The position numbers and the translations under genes are program-made. A stretch of DNA of 64,000 bases from Croceimicrobium hydrocarbonivorans (lineage in GTDB: Bacteria > Bacteroidota > Bacteroidia > Flavobacteriales > Schleiferiaceae). Location of the stretch: the NCBI RefSeq assembly GCF_014524565.1, contig NZ_CP060139.1, positions 620,001 to 684,000 of the forward strand, given 5' to 3'. This document shows positions 14,585 through 22,476 of this stretch, one piece after another. A model generated the notes under the pieces. The model made no database searches, was not told the DNA's origin, and worked only from the letters and a program-made list of their open reading frames with translations. Each line of letters opens with the position of its first letter. The first letter of the stretch is position 1.

Positions 14585-16753
14585 CTATTTGGAACGCGAA
14601 AGAAGAAATAGCCTCCAAAGGTCTTGGTGATACTGTGGATGAGCCTGGCTCCACTGATAGGCATTGCGATCCAGACCGGGGTCAAACAGTGCTTCAAGAC
14701 TCTCCAGCCTTTCCTTAGTCAAGATTTCATCTATCTCTAGAATTCCTTCTTTCAAGGCTTTTTGGCAATGCCGATAAATAGTGGAAACCGTTAAACTGCG
14801 TTTTTCTGCGATTGCTTCCGGTGATAAACCTGCTTCGATTAATCGATAGGTTTGTTTATAGGTCTCCCCTTTCTGATTCTTAGCTCCCTTAGCTTTAGGC
14901 AAATTGGGTTCCGGAACTTTAGCCTTTATTTCTTCCCATAATCGCGATTTGCTCAGGCTAGTATCTTCAAATTGCAAATCACCCTTTCCTTTTAAGAACT
15001 GCAATTGATCATTTAACTGAAATATTCTCAAATAGTACTGAAAGGCCTTTTGCGGAACTAGATCCATGGCCTCGAGTAATTGCTTAGTTCGCTTAAGCTG
15101 ACCGTATTCTCCTTTTAAACTTAGGACCTCTACTAACCAATCTTGCAGATGCGGGAGGAAATAAGCCCTGGCTTTGGCGAGTCTTTCCTCTAATTCCGCA
15201 CTTTGATCTGAATTCATCAAATCATATATCTGGCCTTGAAACTTGCGGGCATGTTTCATTAGTAACTCCAGATTCTTTTCCAATTGCTCAAATCGAGTAC
15301 TGAATCCCGTTTCTTTCAACTTGAGCTTCTCATAGTTATCCTGAAAGAAATCACGGTAGGAATAATACCAATCTTGCCAATCAAAGCATTCGAGTAAATA
15401 ATTCAATTGGTACTCACTTCGAGCCTGATCCAGACTAGCTAAGGTATCTAAGTCCTCATTCATGCGACTAAATTCCTGAGCCTCACGAGAAATCAAGAGG
15501 GCTGAACGTTGCAAGGGACTACTTAAATACAATCCTTCCAAACTTCGCAAGCGAGTTAAGGCCACATAGGCCTGCCCCGGGGCGAAGGCCTTACCCAAAT
15601 CGATCACCGCTTGGTCAAAACTCAAACCTTGACTTTTATGAATGGTAATCGCCCAGGCCAATCGCAAGGGAAACTGGGTGTATTGCCCCAATACCTCTTC
15701 CTCTAAATTTTGCTTGTCCTCATCCAGCTTATAGCGCGAGTTTTTCCAGGTGTCCAAAGGCACTTTAAAATGATCCTCATCTTCCATTTGGACCCAAATA
15801 GCCTCCTTATCCAACTCTGTTACTTCCGCTAATTTACCATTGTAGTATGCCCCTTCCTCACTATCGTTTTTAAGAAACATCACTCGGGCGCCTACTTTTA
15901 GCTTCAACTCATCGGAGGTCGGATAATTTCGCTCGGGAAAATCTCCCTGAACTTTGGCTGAATAGGTGTAAACCTGGCCTGCTAATTCATCCAATCGAGA
16001 TTGATTAATCTTTTGAGCTTGATGTCGATGTGTGACTAAATGGATTGCATCTTTCGGCACATCGTTTATACAACGTTCATTGAGCTTCGCCAAGTCCTCC
16101 TCTTCAATTCGATCATGCCGAATTTTATTGAGCAAGCTTACAAAAGCATCATCCTGCTGTCGGTAAACCTTTTGCAATTCCACCTGCACAAATCCGGATG
16201 CCTCTAAAGCTCGGGAATGGAAAAAATGCATGCCCTTATAATAGGCACTTAGTACCTGCCATTCATGGTCTGATACAATAGGTGGGAGTTGGTACAAATC
16301 CCCAATCATTAATAATTGGACCCCTCCAAAGGCTTTATTCTTACGCCTAGCTTGTCTTAATCTCTGATCAATAGCATCCAGTAAATCCGCCCGGCACATA
16401 CTTACTTCATCAATAACCAGCAGGTCAATACCCTGTAAGACTTGTTTTCTGGCCGCATTTAAGGGATGTCTGCGACTCAGAGCAGAGCGATCAAAAAAAT
16501 TCTGATTGGGATATTGCGTGGCTGAGCCCTCAGGTAAAAAGGAACCTAATGGAAATAAGAACTGAGAATGAATGGTTACCCCTCCTGCATTTAGTGCCGC
16601 TACCCCGGTTGGAGCCACTACGATAAAACTCTTGTGGCAATGTTCGGCCAATTCCCTCAAAAAGGTAGTTTTCCCGGTACCTGCCTTGCCGGTGAGAAAT
16701 ACATTACGGGAACTATAATTTAAAAACTGCTGGGCTATTTGAGCGGGATCCAC
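14585..16753 (-). CDS. PIF1/RecD-type ATP-dependent helicase with C-terminal HTH region
   Basis: The 722-residue superfamily 1 helicase has a Walker A motif GKAGTGKTT (residues 22-30), an APTGVAA motif (47-53), Walker B VIDEVS (about 113-118) and a late motif near ITIHKSQGLSFD with ALTRLRS, typical of PIF1/RecD-like enzymes. The last about 100 residues contain a helix-turn-helix-like stretch (LSPEAIAEKRSLTVSTIYRH), as in Bacteroidota helicases with an HTH_40 domain. The expected role is 5'-3' DNA unwinding in replication or repair. The start codon is GTG at 16753; there is no nearby ATG. It is divergent from the regulator at 16885. I see no terminator between its stop and the receptor start (14383-14584). 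Confidence 0.88.
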   Translation of the reverse strand: MDPAQIAQQFLNYSSRNVFLTGKAGTGKTTFLRELAEHCHKSFIVVAPTGVAALNAGGVTIHSQFLFPLGSFLPEGSATQYPNQNFFDRSALSRRHPLNAARKQVLQGIDLLVIDEVSMCRADLLDAIDQRLRQARRKNKAFGGVQLLMIGDLYQLPPIVSDHEWQVLSAYYKGMHFFHSRALEASGFVQVELQKVYRQQDDAFVSLLNKIRHDRIEEEDLAKLNERCINDVPKDAIHLVTHRHQAQKINQSRLDELAGQVYTYSAKVQGDFPERNYPTSDELKLKVGARVMFLKNDSEEGAYYNGKLAEVTELDKEAIWVQMEDEDHFKVPLDTWKNSRYKLDEDKQNLEEEVLGQYTQFPLRLAWAITIHKSQGLSFDQAVIDLGKAFAPGQAYVALTRLRSLEGLYLSSPLQRSALLISREAQEFSRMNEDLDTLASLDQARSEYQLNYLLECFDWQDWYYSYRDFFQDNYEKLKLKETGFSTRFEQLEKNLELLMKHARKFQGQIYDLMNSDQSAELEERLAKARAYFLPHLQDWLVEVLSLKGEYGQLKRTKQLLEAMDLVPQKAFQYYLRIFQLNDQLQFLKGKGDLQFEDTSLSKSRLWEEIKAKVPEPNLPKAKGAKNQKGETYKQTYRLIEAGLSPEAIAEKRSLTVSTIYRHCQKALKEGILEIDEILTKERLESLEALFDPGLDRNAYQWSQAHPQYHQDLWRLFLLSRSK

Positions 16754-16836: not shown

Positions 16837-16854
16837 TTTCAATATTTATTGAAA
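16837..16854. promoter_or_regulatory. Palindromic operator candidate, copy 1
   Basis: TTTCAATA-TT-TATTGAAA is a perfect 8-bp inverted repeat with a 2-base spacer. Its right arm contains the TTG that serves as the -33 element of the regulator promoter. The same palindrome, one base different, recurs at 17398-17415 after the regulator gene. A MarR/GbsR-type dimer would bind such a site. Binding is inferred. Confidence 0.7.
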
Positions 16855-16880
16855 GTTCTGATATTTATTATATACATTTG
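16849..16880 (+). promoter_or_regulatory. Bacteroidota-type promoter of the GbsR-like regulator
   Basis: TTG at 16849-16851, a 21-bp spacer and TACATTTG at 16873-16880 match the TTG/TAnnTTTG architecture. The start codon at 16885 lies only five bases after the -7 box, so the transcript should be leaderless or nearly so. The -33 element sits in the palindrome, which suggests autorepression. Confidence 0.7.
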
Positions 16881-16884
16881 AACT

Positions 16885-17379
16885 ATGAAAAGCAGTGAAG
16901 CGAAAAAAGAATTTATTCAGGCATGGGGCAGCCTCGGCAGTAGCTGGGGAATTAACCGTACCATGTCTTCGATTCATGCTTTGCTTATGAGTAGTCCTAA
17001 GGCATTAAGCACCGAAGAAATTATGGAAGAGCTCCAAATTTCGAGAGGCAATGCCAATATGAATATTCGGGCTTTGATTGATTGGGGCTTAGTAAAAAAA
17101 CGCTTTATCCCTGGCGAAAGAAAAGAGTTCTTTGAAGCGGGAAAAGACATCTGGGAAATTGCTCGCCAAATTGCCTCCGAACGCAAACGTCGGGAATTAA
17201 GTCCCGTTTTAGAGGTGATAGGTCACCTTAAAGAAACCGAAGATCAAAGTGATCCGGAGTTCAGCGCTCTCTTAAAAGATATGCACGAATTTACCGCTAC
17301 CCTTACCAATGTTATGGATCGTTTCCAACAGAGCGATCGCAATTGGTTCTTCAAAAAACTAATCAAACTTATTAGCTAA
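16885..17379 (+). CDS. GbsR/MarR-family winged-helix transcriptional regulator
   Basis: This is a 164-residue DNA-binding protein. The N-terminal segment (FIQAWGSLGSSWGINRTMSSIHALL) and the winged-helix core (LSTEEIMEELQISRGNANMNIRALIDWGLV, residues about 40-72) are the hallmark of the GbsR-like branch of MarR regulators common in Bacteroidota. The C-terminal part is helical and probably dimerises. Matching palindromes lie in its own promoter and just after its stop, before three membrane-protein genes. I infer autoregulation and control of that operon. Ligand unknown. Members of this branch elsewhere respond to choline/osmolytes, but nothing here shows that. Confidence 0.88.
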   Translation: MKSSEAKKEFIQAWGSLGSSWGINRTMSSIHALLMSSPKALSTEEIMEELQISRGNANMNIRALIDWGLVKKRFIPGERKEFFEAGKDIWEIARQIASERKRRELSPVLEVIGHLKETEDQSDPEFSALLKDMHEFTATLTNVMDRFQQSDRNWFFKKLIKLIS

Positions 17380-17397
17380 TATTTTTTTCAATATATG

Positions 17398-17415
17398 TTT
17401 CAATATTTTTTGAAA
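17398..17415. promoter_or_regulatory. Palindromic operator candidate, copy 2
   Basis: TTTCAATATTTTTTGAAA differs from the palindrome at 16837 by one base. An extra half-site TTTCAATA lies at 17386-17393. The site ends 16 bases before the start of the first membrane-protein gene. No exact TAnnTTTG box is visible here, only a TATTTTTTG variant inside the palindrome. Confidence 0.65.
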
Positions 17416-17431
17416 GTTTAAAAACAACAAA

Positions 17432-17794
17432 ATGAACTGGCAATGGATTTACATCTTCCTTTATCTCCTGGCCGCGGTATGGATCATCTTCGCGGTAGGC
17501 AGCCACCTCTTTAGAAATGGAGCCCCTTTCCTAAAAACCCTATACCCTGAAAAAGATTTGGACCGCTTTATCAATCGCATGCTCCTAACCGGTTATTACC
17601 TTTTAAACCTAGGCTTCGCCATATATAACCTGGTCCAAAATGAAAGCATCGATAGCTGGGCTGATCTCATCAGGCTCTGGGCCGAAAACATTGGCCTCCT
17701 CTGCCTAATCTTAGGTAGCATCCATTACTCTAATCTCATCGTTCTCTACGCTATTTCAAACTCAAGTTTATCATCTCAAAATCCACAATCATGA
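17432..17794 (+). CDS. Small three-TM membrane protein, paralog of the next gene
   Basis: This is a 120-residue protein of unknown function. Hydrophobic helices lie near residues 5-24, 50-68 and 85-108. It shares a frame of motifs with the next protein: LFRNG versus LFKNG after helix 1, then NRMLLTGYYLLNLGFAIYNL versus NRLFETGFYLLNIGFALWIL. The two are therefore diverged duplicates that may form a heteromer. It follows the regulator by 52 bases with the second operator between them, and its stop overlaps the next start (ATGA), so translation is probably coupled. No catalytic motif is visible. Confidence 0.8.
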   Translation: MNWQWIYIFLYLLAAVWIIFAVGSHLFRNGAPFLKTLYPEKDLDRFINRMLLTGYYLLNLGFAIYNLVQNESIDSWADLIRLWAENIGLLCLILGSIHYSNLIVLYAISNSSLSSQNPQS

Positions 17795-18204
17795 CTCCTA
17801 TTATCGAAAACCCCGATTTCTATACCCTTTGGGCCTATGGTATTTCCATTCCTGTTACCGTAGCACTTACCATCTATGTTTCTCGAAAGCTCTTTAAAAA
17901 CGGTTTGGTTTATATGCGCGATATCTTTCACGGTCGTGAGGAATTAGCCCTAAGCACTAACCGCTTGTTTGAAACCGGTTTCTACCTTCTCAATATTGGC
18001 TTTGCACTCTGGATTCTGGAAATGCACTATCTCGACTCTACCCGCGATTTAGTAGAGTCTCTCAGTCAAAAAGTAGGTGGCTTTAGCATCTATTTAGGGG
18101 TAGTTCTCTTCCTCAATCTCTTCCTTTTCTTCAGAGGAAAAAAAGCGGCTCGAATTAATCGTGAGATTCGGGAACGTCAGCAGCAATTTAAGCCTCAAGT
18201 GTAA
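17791..18204 (+). CDS. Small three-TM membrane protein, paralog of the previous gene
   Basis: This is a 137-residue protein of unknown function with hydrophobic helices near 13-30, 65-83 and 97-114, and a basic C-terminal tail (KKAARINREIRERQQQ) likely to face the cytoplasm. It shares the LF(K/R)NG and TG(F/Y)YLLN(I/L)GFA motifs with the protein encoded just upstream. It overlaps that gene by four bases and is followed three bases later by another membrane-protein gene, so all three probably form one operon under the GbsR-like regulator. Confidence 0.8.
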   Translation: MTPIIENPDFYTLWAYGISIPVTVALTIYVSRKLFKNGLVYMRDIFHGREELALSTNRLFETGFYLLNIGFALWILEMHYLDSTRDLVESLSQKVGGFSIYLGVVLFLNLFLFFRGKKAARINREIRERQQQFKPQV

Positions 18205-18207
18205 ACC

Positions 18208-18972
18208 ATGATTAGCCCTGCTTCTCAAAATGAAAGGTTGGCCCGAAGATTTCGGGTCGCCCTTTCCTTTGTGGCCATGATCCTTTCCACTTTTATCACC
18301 GCCATTCTGAATCGCTTCATTCTTGCAGATAAAGAGGAAATCCTGATTGCCTATTTTCCTCTAATTGGAGGAGCCTTTGTCATTTTTACCTGGCTCATTT
18401 CTGTTTCCTGGCCACTTCTTCTGATTCCCACAAAGTCAGGCTTCTATCGAAAATGGAATGTGCTTTGGTATTCACTTTTGCATGCGGCCCTCATTGGCTT
18501 TAGCTTCTTTGGCGCACTTATTTTCGAGTCTGGCAATTTTGATCTCTTCTACTCCTCTCTGCTTGGTGGACTTTTCACAGGGCTTATTTTTAAAGGTCTA
18601 TTGGAGTGGAACGCTTTGCAGGACTTACTAAACAAGTCTCCCCGATTGCGCTTTACCGCCCTACTCGCTCCTGTGCTATTCTGCTTTTTGTATTACTGGG
18701 CCTTTCCCCATATCAGTCCACAAGCGGCATTCCCCTATATGCCCAAAGAAATACAGCGGGAAATTTTCCTCAGGGAACTCATTCATTTAAAACCAGGTCA
18801 AAGCCTGGATAAATTATATCAGGAACTCCCTTACCGAAATTCCCAAGAAACGGTGGATAGCCTGGGTATACTTTACAATGACCTTCAATTGGGGAAGGAT
18901 ATGATTCATTTTGAAACCCATAATAACACCTTAGTAAAACTGGAGATTAGCAAACAAAAAAAAGCCCGCTAA
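18208..18972 (+). CDS. Multi-pass membrane protein of unknown function
   Basis: The 254-residue protein has hydrophobic segments near residues 15-35, 45-75, 85-105, 112-130 and 148-165, then a soluble C-terminal part of about 80 residues (from YMPKEIQREI) ending KKKAR. It is the third membrane gene of the regulator-linked operon, three bases after its neighbour. Nothing in it identifies a family. The last codons lie inside the hairpin that terminates the convergent icmF transcript. Confidence 0.75.
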   Translation: MISPASQNERLARRFRVALSFVAMILSTFITAILNRFILADKEEILIAYFPLIGGAFVIFTWLISVSWPLLLIPTKSGFYRKWNVLWYSLLHAALIGFSFFGALIFESGNFDLFYSSLLGGLFTGLIFKGLLEWNALQDLLNKSPRLRFTALLAPVLFCFLYYWAFPHISPQAAFPYMPKEIQREIFLRELIHLKPGQSLDKLYQELPYRNSQETVDSLGILYNDLQLGKDMIHFETHNNTLVKLEISKQKKAR

Positions 18973-18980
18973 TGCGGGCT
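18956..18980 (-). terminator. icmF terminator lying inside the 3' end of the opposing gene
   Basis: The stem AGCCCGC/GCGGGCT (18963-18980) has a TAAT loop that holds the stop codon of the plus-strand gene. On the minus strand it is followed by a run of seven T residues, so it should end icmF transcription. Confidence 0.8.
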
Positions 18981-19005
18981 CTAGATAATAGTCGATAATC
19001 CTTTC

Positions 19006-22000
19006 TTACATATTTCTGCGGTACTGTCCACCTACCTCAAATAAGGCAGTAGTAATCTGTCCCAGACTACAGAACTTAGTAGCTTCCATCAATACCTCGA
19101 ACATATTCTCATTATTGATAGCCGCTTGTTGCAATTTCGATAACCAGATTTTTGCCTGATCTGCATTGCGCTCATGCAATTCATTCAGGTTTTGAATCTG
19201 CTGCTCCTTCTCTTCCTTGGTGGCACGAATTACCTCTCCTGGAGTAGTGGTTGGAGATCCTTCTGAACTCAAGAAAGTATTCACCCCGATAATGGGCATT
19301 TCGCCATTATGCTTCAAGGTTTCGTAGTACAAGCTTTCTTCCTGGATTTTACCGCGCTGATACATGGTTTCCATGGCGCCTAATACGCCTCCCCTTTCGG
19401 TAATACGATCAAATTCGCTCAATACCGCTTCTTCAACCAAATCAGTTAAATCTTCAATAATGAAGCTTCCTTGAATCGGATTTTCATTTTTCGCTAATCC
19501 CAATTCCTTGTTGATAATCAACTGAATGGCCATGGCCCGACGAACACTTTCCTCGGTAGGAGTAGTAATGGCCTCATCATAAGCATTGGTATGCAGTGAA
19601 TTACAGTTATCATAAATCGCGTACAGGGCCTGTAAGGTGGTACGGATATCATTAAACTGAATTTCCTGTGCATGGAGCGATCTACCTGAGGTTTGAATGT
19701 GATACTTCAACATTTGAGCACGAGAATTTGCCCCGTACTTATGCTTTAAGGCCTTAGACCATATCCGACGAGCTGCACGCCCGATTACGGCATATTCAGG
19801 ATCAATTCCATTACTGAAGAAGAAACTCAAGTTTGGGCCGAAATCGTTAATGTCCATACCCCGACTTAAATAGTACTCTACATAGGTAAAGCCATTGGCC
19901 AAGGTGAAGGCCAATTGGGTAATCGGATTGGCACCGGCCTCAGCAATGTGGTAGCCAGAGATGGATACCGAATAGAAATTCCGAACCTTATTATTGATGA
20001 AGCTTTCTTGCACATCACCCATCAGCCTTAAGGCAAATTCGGTGGAGAATATACAGGTGTTCTGAGCTTGATCTTCTTTTAAGATATCCGCTTGCACCGT
20101 ACCTCTAACCACGGATAAGGTCTTGGCTCGAATGCCAGCATACACCTCAGGATCTAATACCTGATCGCCCGTAAGGCCTAGAAGCATTAATCCCAGACCA
20201 TTATTGCCTTTTGGCAGATGACCTTTTACCGCTACTCCAGAAAGTACATTTTCTTCAATACGATCCTTGGGACTGTTTTTAGGAAGTCCTTCGTAAAATG
20301 GTCGGCTTATACCCTGATCATCGTAAAGTTCCTTAAACTTGGCCTCTACCTGAGCTTCCAAGCCATTTTCGCGAATGTAAATTTCACATTGCTGGTCAAC
20401 GGCAGCATTCATAAAGAAAGCCAAAAGCATGGGCGCCGGACCATTAATGGTCATACTTACGGAAGTAGTAGGCTCACTTAAATTAAAGCCGGAATACAGT
20501 TTTTTAGCATCCGATAAATTACAGATACTTACCCCTGAGTTACCAATCTTCCCGTAAATATCCGGACGGTAATCCGGATCATTACCATATAAAGTAACCG
20601 AGTCGAAGGCGGTACTTAATCGAGCGGCCGGCATATCCTGACTCACATAGTGGAATCGACGGTTAGTACGCTCAGGACCTCCTTCTCCAGCAAACATTCG
20701 GGTAGGATCTTCTCCGGTTCTTTTAAAAGGATAGATGCCCGCGGTATAAGGGAATTCTCCGGGAACATTTTCCTGAAGATTCCAGCTTAATAGATCGCCC
20801 CAAGCCTGATAGCGTGGCAGTGAAACCTTTGGAATCATATTATGAGAGAGAGATTCTGTATGAGTTTCAATGCGGATTTCCTTTCCACGAACGCTAAAGG
20901 AGTACACCTCATCTTTATAGCGCTTCACTTTGGATTCCCAAGCCTTAATGATATCCCAATTATGGGGATCCAAATCCTTCTTGATCTCCTGGAATTTATC
21001 CACTAACTCCTTTAAGGTACCCTCTGTATCTACTGTAGCGTGTTCATCTGCCAGTAAATTAGGACCGCCAAAGCTGAGTATTGCCTGATATAATCCATAA
21101 AGCTTCTGGGCCACTTCCGCTTCTTTCTGCACCTTTTGATCGTAGCCGCGGTTGTTTTCTGAAATTTCGGATAGGTAGCGCGTGCGATTGGGTGGGATGA
21201 TGTAAATCTTCTCACTCATTTCACCACTGCTCTTGAAGTCGCTTTTTAAGTGCTTAGCGCCCGCTTTTTCTACCAATGCATCCATTATAGCACGATAGAG
21301 AGCATTGGTTCCCGGATCGTTAAACTGGCTAGCTATGCTACCAAATACCGGCATATCATCTGGGTCTTTATCCCAAAGGTTATGGTTGCGCTGGTACTGC
21401 TTCTTCACATCGCGCAAAGCATCCAGTGCTCCTCGCTTATCAAATTTGTTTAGAGCAATCAGATCGGCAAAATCGAGCATATCGATTTTCTCCAATTGGG
21501 TAGCGGCTCCATATTCAGGAGTCATCACATACAATGAAACATCGCTGTGTTCCAAAATCTCAGTATCACTTTGTCCGATACCTGAAGTTTCCAATACGAT
21601 TAAATCGTAGTCAGCCGCTTTTAAAATATTAATAGCCTCCTGCACATGTTTACTCAATGCCAAATTACTTTGACGAGTAGCTAGGGAGCGCATATAAACG
21701 CGGTCATTACGAATGGCATTCATACGAATACGGTCGCCCAATAAAGCACCTCCGGTTTTCCGCTTGGAAGGGTCTACCGATACAATGGCCATGGTTTTTT
21801 CTGGATGGTCCATCAAGAAGCGACGTACCAATTCATCCACCAGAGAACTCTTACCTGCACCACCGGTTCCAGTAATTCCCAATACGGGGCTTTTCGATTC
21901 TGCTGCTAATTGATCTACTTGATCCAATACATCACGATGTAGATCCATATTGTTTTCTGCAGCGGAAATAAGGCGGGCAATATCCGGTTTCGATTGACTC

Positions 22001-22476
22001 TTAAGATGATTTAATTCACCATTAAGCTTTGTTCCGGTGGGGAAATCGCATTGTTGGATCATATCATTGATCATGCCTTGCAATCCTAAGGCACGGCCAT
22101 CATCCGGAGAATAGATACGGTCAATTCCGTATTCGTGCAATTCTTTGATTTCTTCGGGTAGAATTACTCCACCGCCACCACCAAATATCTTGATATGTGG
22201 CGCACCTTTCTCCTTCAGGAGATCGTGCATGTACTTGAAATATTCGATATGTCCACCTTGATAGGAAGTCATGGCAATAGCCTGTGCATCTTCTTGAATA
22301 GCGGTATTCACCACTTCTTCAACCGAGCGATCGTGGCCTAAATGGATTACTTCACAGCCGGTAGCTTGAATAATCCGTCGCATAATATTGATAGCTGCAT
22401 CATGACCATCAAATAATGAGGCCGCAGTTACAATGCGAACTTTGTTTTTAGGAGTATATGGAGCAATGTCTTGCAT
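19006..22476 (-). CDS. icmF: Fused isobutyryl-CoA mutase (IcmF-type): B12 domain, G-protein chaperone, mutase
   Basis: This 1156-residue fusion has three parts. The cobalamin-binding domain (about 12-145) has DGHDAA at 23-28, with H25 as the expected lower cobalt ligand, and a GGGGG segment near 99-103. The MeaB-like GTPase domain has a P-loop GTGGAGKS at 203-210. The acyl-CoA mutase TIM barrel fills roughly 560-1100. Length and order match IcmF, which interconverts isobutyryl-CoA and n-butyryl-CoA (some members act on pivalyl- or isovaleryl-CoA) using adenosylcobalamin and reactivates itself through the GTPase domain. A classical methylmalonyl-CoA mutase subunit is encoded at 63297, so this is a separate enzyme. 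Confidence 0.92.

Follow-up and report, generated by a model that had tools for sequence, protein, structure and literature searches.

The locus analysed here raises the question of whether two palindromes around the gene of a GbsR-like regulator (R), one in the regulator promoter and the other directly in front of three membrane-protein genes, make up one autoregulated switch, and how such a switch would work. The original prediction had proposed this arrangement from the letters of the DNA. We have followed it through the window, that is, the whole 64,000-nucleotide stretch of DNA that was analysed, the rest of the genome, and relatives in the same phylum.

Layout of the locus

The features of the locus are collected in Table 1. 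The letters of both palindromes match exactly at the positions where they had been predicted. The first one overlaps the -33 TTG with the -7 box behind it, and the regulator and the three downstream open reading frames agree with the earlier description. Operator 2 starts 18 nt past the stop codon of R, and the reading frames of genes A and B share 4 bases. An extra half-site in the gap after R had also been noted, and it is present in the window, but it is not generally conserved: TTTCA is found 8-16 nt before site 2 in only 9 of 57 loci, which removes it as a conserved third operator half.

Table 1. Predicted and observed features of the R locus (positions in the window)
Feature	Position	Strand	Remarks
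Operator 1 (predicted), TTTCAATATTTATTGAAA	16837..16854	.	exact; spans the -33 region of the regulator promoter
Predicted promoter P1	16849..16880	+	TTG 16849-16851 inside operator 1, 21-nt spacer, -7 box TACATTTG 16873-16880
Regulator R	16885..17379	+	164 aa, GbsR/MarR-type winged-helix protein
Gap from R stop to operator 2	17380..17397	+	T-tract 17382-17388; half-site TTTCAATA 17386-17393
Operator 2 (predicted), TTTCAATATTTTTTGAAA	17398..17415	.	exact; between R stop and operon start
Gene A	17432..17794	+	120-aa membrane protein, paralogue of B
Gene B	17791..18204	+	137-aa membrane protein, three long helices predicted
Gene C	18208..18972	+	254-aa membrane protein, lineage-specific

Divergent to R, the minus strand encodes a PIF1/RecD2-like helicase with a C-terminal HTH_40 domain (14585-16753), which also adjoins R in relatives (cluster C7, 8 loci including the window). 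On the other side, a single minus-strand gene (19006-22476) encodes a protein with B12-binding, MeaB GTPase and methylmalonyl-CoA mutase domains, a set that we take to be that of the fused IcmF-type mutases. Where gene C and the mutase gene converge (18961-18982), a GC-rich hairpin with a minus-strand T-run is likely a terminator.

The palindrome pair in the window and the genome

A search of the window for the palindrome pattern, allowing up to 3 mismatches, gives four strand matches, all of which are the two sites; 100 shuffled versions of the window gave a mean of 0.56 matches and at most 3. The strict form TTTCAAN6TTGAAA occurs at two places in the 4,035,598-base genome, both at this locus, and its reversed-pattern control at none. 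The pair is beyond chance. The looser TTTCAN8TGAAA is found genome-wide at 19 places versus 10 in the control, and a search for TTTCAATATTTWTTGAAA allowing as many as 3 mismatches yields 38 strand matches versus 6, the next-best places having 2 mismatches. Three such 2-mismatch places to the 18-mer (G000:C1:2432896, 3149452 and 3156613; L005-L007) are possible weak sites. Inspection of 8 of the 17 other loose-motif places, on either strand, found a TAnnTTTG box at the P1 distance in none of them.

In the genomes of relatives, the AT-cored form TTTCAW8TGAAA is present in 22 of 26, with 0-5 places in each and 0-2 in controls. Three Flavobacterium-like genomes (G025, G093 and G325) have 4-5 places versus 1-2 in their controls, and distal targets of R may exist in the relatives' genomes; the one extra place that was inspected (in G328) sits between two ordinary enzyme genes. 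It is noted that the window's own genome encodes a second, distant GbsR-like regulator (30% identity) at G000:C1:2055997-2056395 (L002). No strict palindrome lies there, and a neighbouring open reading frame resembles, by eye, an outer-membrane efflux protein.

Family of the regulator and type of its operator

The best solved relative of R is Mj223 (1ku9_A; phmmer 1.7e-17), the template used for GbsR. A Foldseek search with the predicted structure of R (pLDDT 88.9) also leads to 1ku9, at 3.6e-10, and R shares with Mj223 a winged-helix N-terminal domain and a helical C-terminal part. The assignment of R as GbsR-like is thus upheld by sequence and by predicted fold. With CudC, the choline-regulator model of NCBIfam, R scores 46.6 bits, far under the equivalog cut-off of 218, and with Pfam MarR_2 26.8 bits, the gathering score being 27. 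The aromatic cage for choline or betaine is described as absent outside the osmostress group in the part of the family survey available to us (PMC6207618).

The operator can be compared with that of CydE, a GbsR-type repressor. The published footprint, as given in the accessible text of that report, is TATTTCAGAAATTTCTGAAAGTTCA (PMC6096048); it contains TTTCAGAAATTTCTGAAA and fits TTTCA-N8-TGAAA with zero mismatches. Homologues of R are also carried on plasmids (171 records, each <60% identity). Among five that were sampled, three precede cydD, one precedes cytochrome bd oxidase genes and one lies in an unannotated record; in each of the three that precede cydD, TTTCAN8TGAAA lies 39-42 bp upstream of the start, and neither of the others has the motif. 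By the CydE footprint and the plasmid motif, at least one GbsR-type regulator that has been tested uses this type of operator, and relatives of R have it in front of them. Site 1 of the window carries the TTTCA-N8-TGAAA upstream of the regulator that would mark a CydE/CioR subgroup, a trait generalised from CydE, the window and three of the five plasmid homologues. The cytochrome bd or cydDC neighbourhood of that subgroup is not seen, the neighbours in the window being the helicase and the three membrane genes. We propose to place R in a branch of GbsR/CydE-type repressors that is found in Bacteroidota.

Conservation of both sites in relatives

To obtain relatives, a 23-protein alignment of R was searched against a GTDB-based collection, and the best 80 of 584 relatives were kept; this sample is weighted to Chryseobacterium and Chitinophaga, and its counts are not independent events. 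A site was scored up to 130 bp before the R start where at least 100 bp of upstream sequence was present, and up to 170 bp past the stop where at least 150 bp of downstream sequence was present. Among these best 80 of 584 relatives, TTTCAN8TGAAA is found upstream of R in 68 of 79 loci, behind the R stop in 56 of 78, and at both places together in 54 of 77, while dinucleotide-shuffled controls yield means of 0.15 loci for the upstream zone and 0.2 for the downstream zone. Because the regulators in the sample are 49-85% identical to R, the conservation of the sites does not merely reflect recency. Both-site loci span 15 genera, counted by eye from record titles, including Chitinophaga, Mucilaginibacter, Chryseobacterium, Tenacibaculum, Rufibacter, Fulvivirga and Roseivirga. 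Two of them are Chitinophaga pinensis (L233), where a TIGR01777 gene comes next, and Mucilaginibacter gossypii (L192), where an A/B gene does. Across the phylum, R was found in 93 of 296 sampled genomes (E <= 1e-15), the other 203 being without it. Of 40 loci taken from these 93 genomes by R similarity, almost all with one of the better matches to R, 35 carry site 1 and 26 carry both sites; this second set may share species with the 80-relative sample.

Gene B was found in 12 of 39 genomes searched, the window's own included. All 11 relatives with B (L044-L054) carry TTTCAN8TGAAA both before and behind R. The original prediction had named as its phylogenetic test that the palindromes be kept where the operon is kept, and both this set and the 54 of 77 both-site loci agree with it. 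Nor is the system local, as the relatives show: it recurs across many genera, and its gene set varies.

Association of site 2 with the downstream module

The presence of site 2 goes together with the presence of the module. Where site 2 is present (up to 1 mismatch), a core module gene starts within 1.8 kb in 54 of 58 loci; where it is absent, this holds for 5 of 20, the other 15 having none (Fisher p = 1e-8 over 78 loci, the relatives not being independent). With genes called by tblastn the same table reads 53/58 versus 5/20 (p = 4e-8). The exceptions are 5 of 59 module-bearing loci that lack site 2 and 4 of 58 site-2 loci that lack a core module gene. One of these four, L208, does carry an A/B gene by tblastn. 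Some module-less loci still have site 1, for example L186 and L187 (titled Lewinella). A reverse search with B alone found R, or at least its end, no more than about 1.5 kb away in 17 of 20 loci, drawn from 42 genomes with B; in two of the three remaining loci (L123 and L134) R is encoded further upstream in the same genomes. In a family seen in two genomes (f42; L117:5464-7416 and L119), a gene for 1-deoxy-D-xylulose-5-phosphate synthase replaces the module after R and site 1.

Genes of the module

Gene A was recovered with B as the query at 30% identity, and likewise in alignments A2 and A3; judged by their sequences, A and B are paralogues of one three-helix membrane family. The family has no Pfam or NCBIfam assignment over cut-off, and residues N57, Y65 and G70 are invariant across 42 of its sequences. 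The model of B consists of three long helices (pLDDT 85.7) and has no match in the PDB with E <= 0.001. Relatives of gene C (cluster C17) were seen at L044 and L045 only, among 52 loci clustered. The predicted three-gene module holds as three open reading frames, with the A/B paralogue pair as its core and the third gene, C, as a lineage-specific part. A defence or phage origin of A, B and C was considered and dropped, PADLOC giving no match and PHROG a single weak one.

The contents of the putative operons were counted in 71 loci with more than 3 kb of downstream sequence, from the best 80 of 584 relatives, each cluster being named from one representative. A TIGR01777 reductase cluster is present in 40 of the 71 loci, A/B in 30, a DCC oxidoreductase in 25, SRPBCC in 20, DUF2071 in 19 (an upper bound, as this cluster includes two short proteins, 104 and 107 aa long) and a desaturase in 5. 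Out of 55 further operon proteins without a label, 26 were scanned with Pfam, chosen partly for a methyltransferase-like or membrane-protein look, and 5 of these are methyltransferases. The genome under study encodes a TIGR01777 protein elsewhere, outside this operon. Since the module includes reductase, desaturase, methyltransferase and similar clusters, a change in membrane lipid or redox state is suggested. That the module would adjust the cell membrane in this way in response to a signal is a tentative reading, to which we give rather less than even weight.

Promoter geometry at site 1 and the region of site 2

In 53 of 70 loci P1 has the form TTG-N19-TAnnTTTG, with the TTG provided by the right half-site TTGAAA; TAnnTTTG lies 33-35 nt from the start of site 1 in 53 of 70 loci and 36 nt from it in the window. 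TTG together with TAnnTTTG is the promoter form of Bacteroidetes, and the six fixed bases of TAHHTTTG are nearly invariant in F. johnsoniae (PMC6847099). The -7 box ends 4 nt before the ATG of R (16873-16885), with similar spacing in relatives that have site 1 about 46 bp upstream. Based on this geometry of P1, where site 1 is about 46 bp upstream, the R transcript may start at or next to the ATG, and the mRNA may be leaderless.

Near site 2, none of 57 loci has TAHHTTTG in the 300 bp preceding the site or the 60 bp following it, and 1 of 57 has it further up. This is weak evidence, because a canonical -7 box turned up in just 6 of 91 control gaps, ordinary ones of 40-100 bp between codirectional genes; a canonical second promoter was set aside with this limit on the test. 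Position 12 of site 2 is C in 74% of the relatives and breaks the symmetry, so the -33-type TTG is usually lost there; the window retains it. A T-tract precedes site 2, with T at -12 and -11 in 53 of 56 loci, whether site 2 lies <30 nt from the R stop (36/37) or >=30 nt (17/19). The distance from the tract to site 2 is therefore fixed, however far away the R stop lies. The next open reading frame begins 2-43 nt behind site 2 in 45 of 57 loci.

Hairpins before the T-tract are strong in Chryseobacterium and some other genera and nearly missing in the window (-0.5 kcal/mol). That a terminator generally separates R from site 2 was rejected, strong hairpins being restricted to some genera. Looping between the two operators was likewise unsupported: the sites are 553-645 bp apart, with no 10-11 bp periodicity (vector lengths 0.07-0.15, n = 56) and hence no helical phasing.

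Proposed mechanism and alternatives

Very probably, R binds both sites and represses itself and the operon; comparison among relatives supports the single autoregulated GbsR-like switch that had been predicted for R and the membrane operon. In the proposed mechanism, R, presumably as a dimer, would bind TTTCA-N8-TGAAA at two places. At operator 1, judging from the position of the site, R would repress itself by covering the -33 element in its promoter. At operator 2, between its own stop codon and the operon, it would hold back the membrane genes, possibly as a roadblock to RNA polymerase reading through from the R gene, as for GbsR of B. subtilis, perhaps assisted by the T-tract just before the operator. 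A ligand would then free R from both sites, and A, B and C would be switched on together.

The mode of action at operator 2 is the most finely balanced part of this mechanism. As no canonical promoter is seen nearby, a roadblock is the likeliest mode, and we rate its chance at about one half. The main competitor, a substantial possibility though somewhat short of even, is that operator 2 overlaps a separate, non-canonical operon promoter and that R blocks the access of RNA polymerase at both promoters. The T-tract at -13..-10 would serve as the -33 element and TA(C/T)TGAAA, 19 nt further on, as a degenerate form of the -7 element. This would account for T at -12/-11 being tied to site 2 at any distance from the R stop, and the 19-nt spacing equals that of P1; the short distance to the next open reading frame and the hairpins that precede the T-tract in several genera point the same way, and in Chryseobacterium a terminator-like hairpin at this position would argue for a separate promoter there. 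However, TACTGAAA does not fit TAHHTTTG, the box that is nearly invariant in F. johnsoniae (PMC6847099), and site 2 exceeds site 1 only slightly in the frequency of TA at the proposed -7 place. The roadblock is slightly favoured over such an unusual second promoter.

Alternatives that change the role of R itself, or of the palindromes, fare much worse. MarR-type proteins include activators, as the available part of the family survey states (PMC6207618), and R could activate the operon instead of repressing it; yet the characterised GbsR-type regulators are repressors in the portions of the reports at hand (PMC6207618, PMC11837568, PMC6096048), and site 1 covers the -33 element, which makes activation improbable. 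It is more improbable still that another regulator binds the palindromes and that R is a bystander: the link between R and the palindromes does come from sequence comparison, but the motif accompanies R across many genera, often even without the module, and equals the footprint reported for the GbsR-type CydE in the accessible text (PMC6096048). Palindromes that are chance AT-rich sequence would suit the AT-rich gaps and the loose matches elsewhere in the genome, but against the shuffle and reversed-pattern controls and the conservation of both sites in relatives we consider this negligible.

Comparison with known systems

The available text on CydE of Alishewanella sp. WH16-1 describes a regulator that is of GbsR type like R and that, as is proposed for R, acts at its own promoter and has two binding sites, one of them with TTTCA-N8-TGAAA followed by GTTC as in the window (PMC6096048). 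In contrast to R, CydE has cytochrome bd genes under its control and is freed by sulfate; its second site differs in sequence, and the two sites lie together in the promoter region. GbsR and OpcR of B. subtilis belong to the same family as R; in the part of that report consulted, the OpcR operator over the -35 element resembles site 1, and the GbsR operator past the start site possibly resembles site 2, the roadblock there having been deduced from operator position and mutations (PMC7396694). Unlike R, these two act on choline and osmoprotectant genes, and the GbsR half-sites are 4 bp apart, compared with 8 bp between TTTCA and TGAAA here (PMC7396694). CioR of Chromobacterium violaceum is encoded, as R would be, by the first gene of a co-transcribed operon, which it represses; its operon differs in encoding cytochrome bd, and the accessible portion of the report does not name an internal operator (PMC11837568).

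The 2018 survey of the GbsR family includes a Bacteroidetes group for which, in the part available, gene neighbourhoods gave no consistent picture, and to which no process was assigned (PMC6207618). That group shares phylum and family with R, and the conserved layout with two operators and the recurring set of genes can now be placed beside it. Literature searches by motif letters, family and domain names found no description of the operon; most subscription papers are outside their coverage. The locus is thus a genuine and conserved, probably autoregulated, switch of a known regulator family, in which the layout is new and the target set undescribed in the literature searched. We tentatively, and with less than even confidence, extend this to a multi-genus Bacteroidota circuit, in which a GbsR-type repressor would use the same operator twice per transcription unit, at its own promoter and as a read-through gate behind its stop codon, in front of an undescribed membrane-adaptation operon of interchangeable genes (A/B, TIGR01777 reductase, DCC oxidoreductase, SRPBCC, DUF2071, desaturase or methyltransferase). 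With these results, the Bacteroidetes GbsR group gains a defined operator and target set, together with named species for testing, and the shared operator links this Bacteroidota group with the proteobacterial CydE group.
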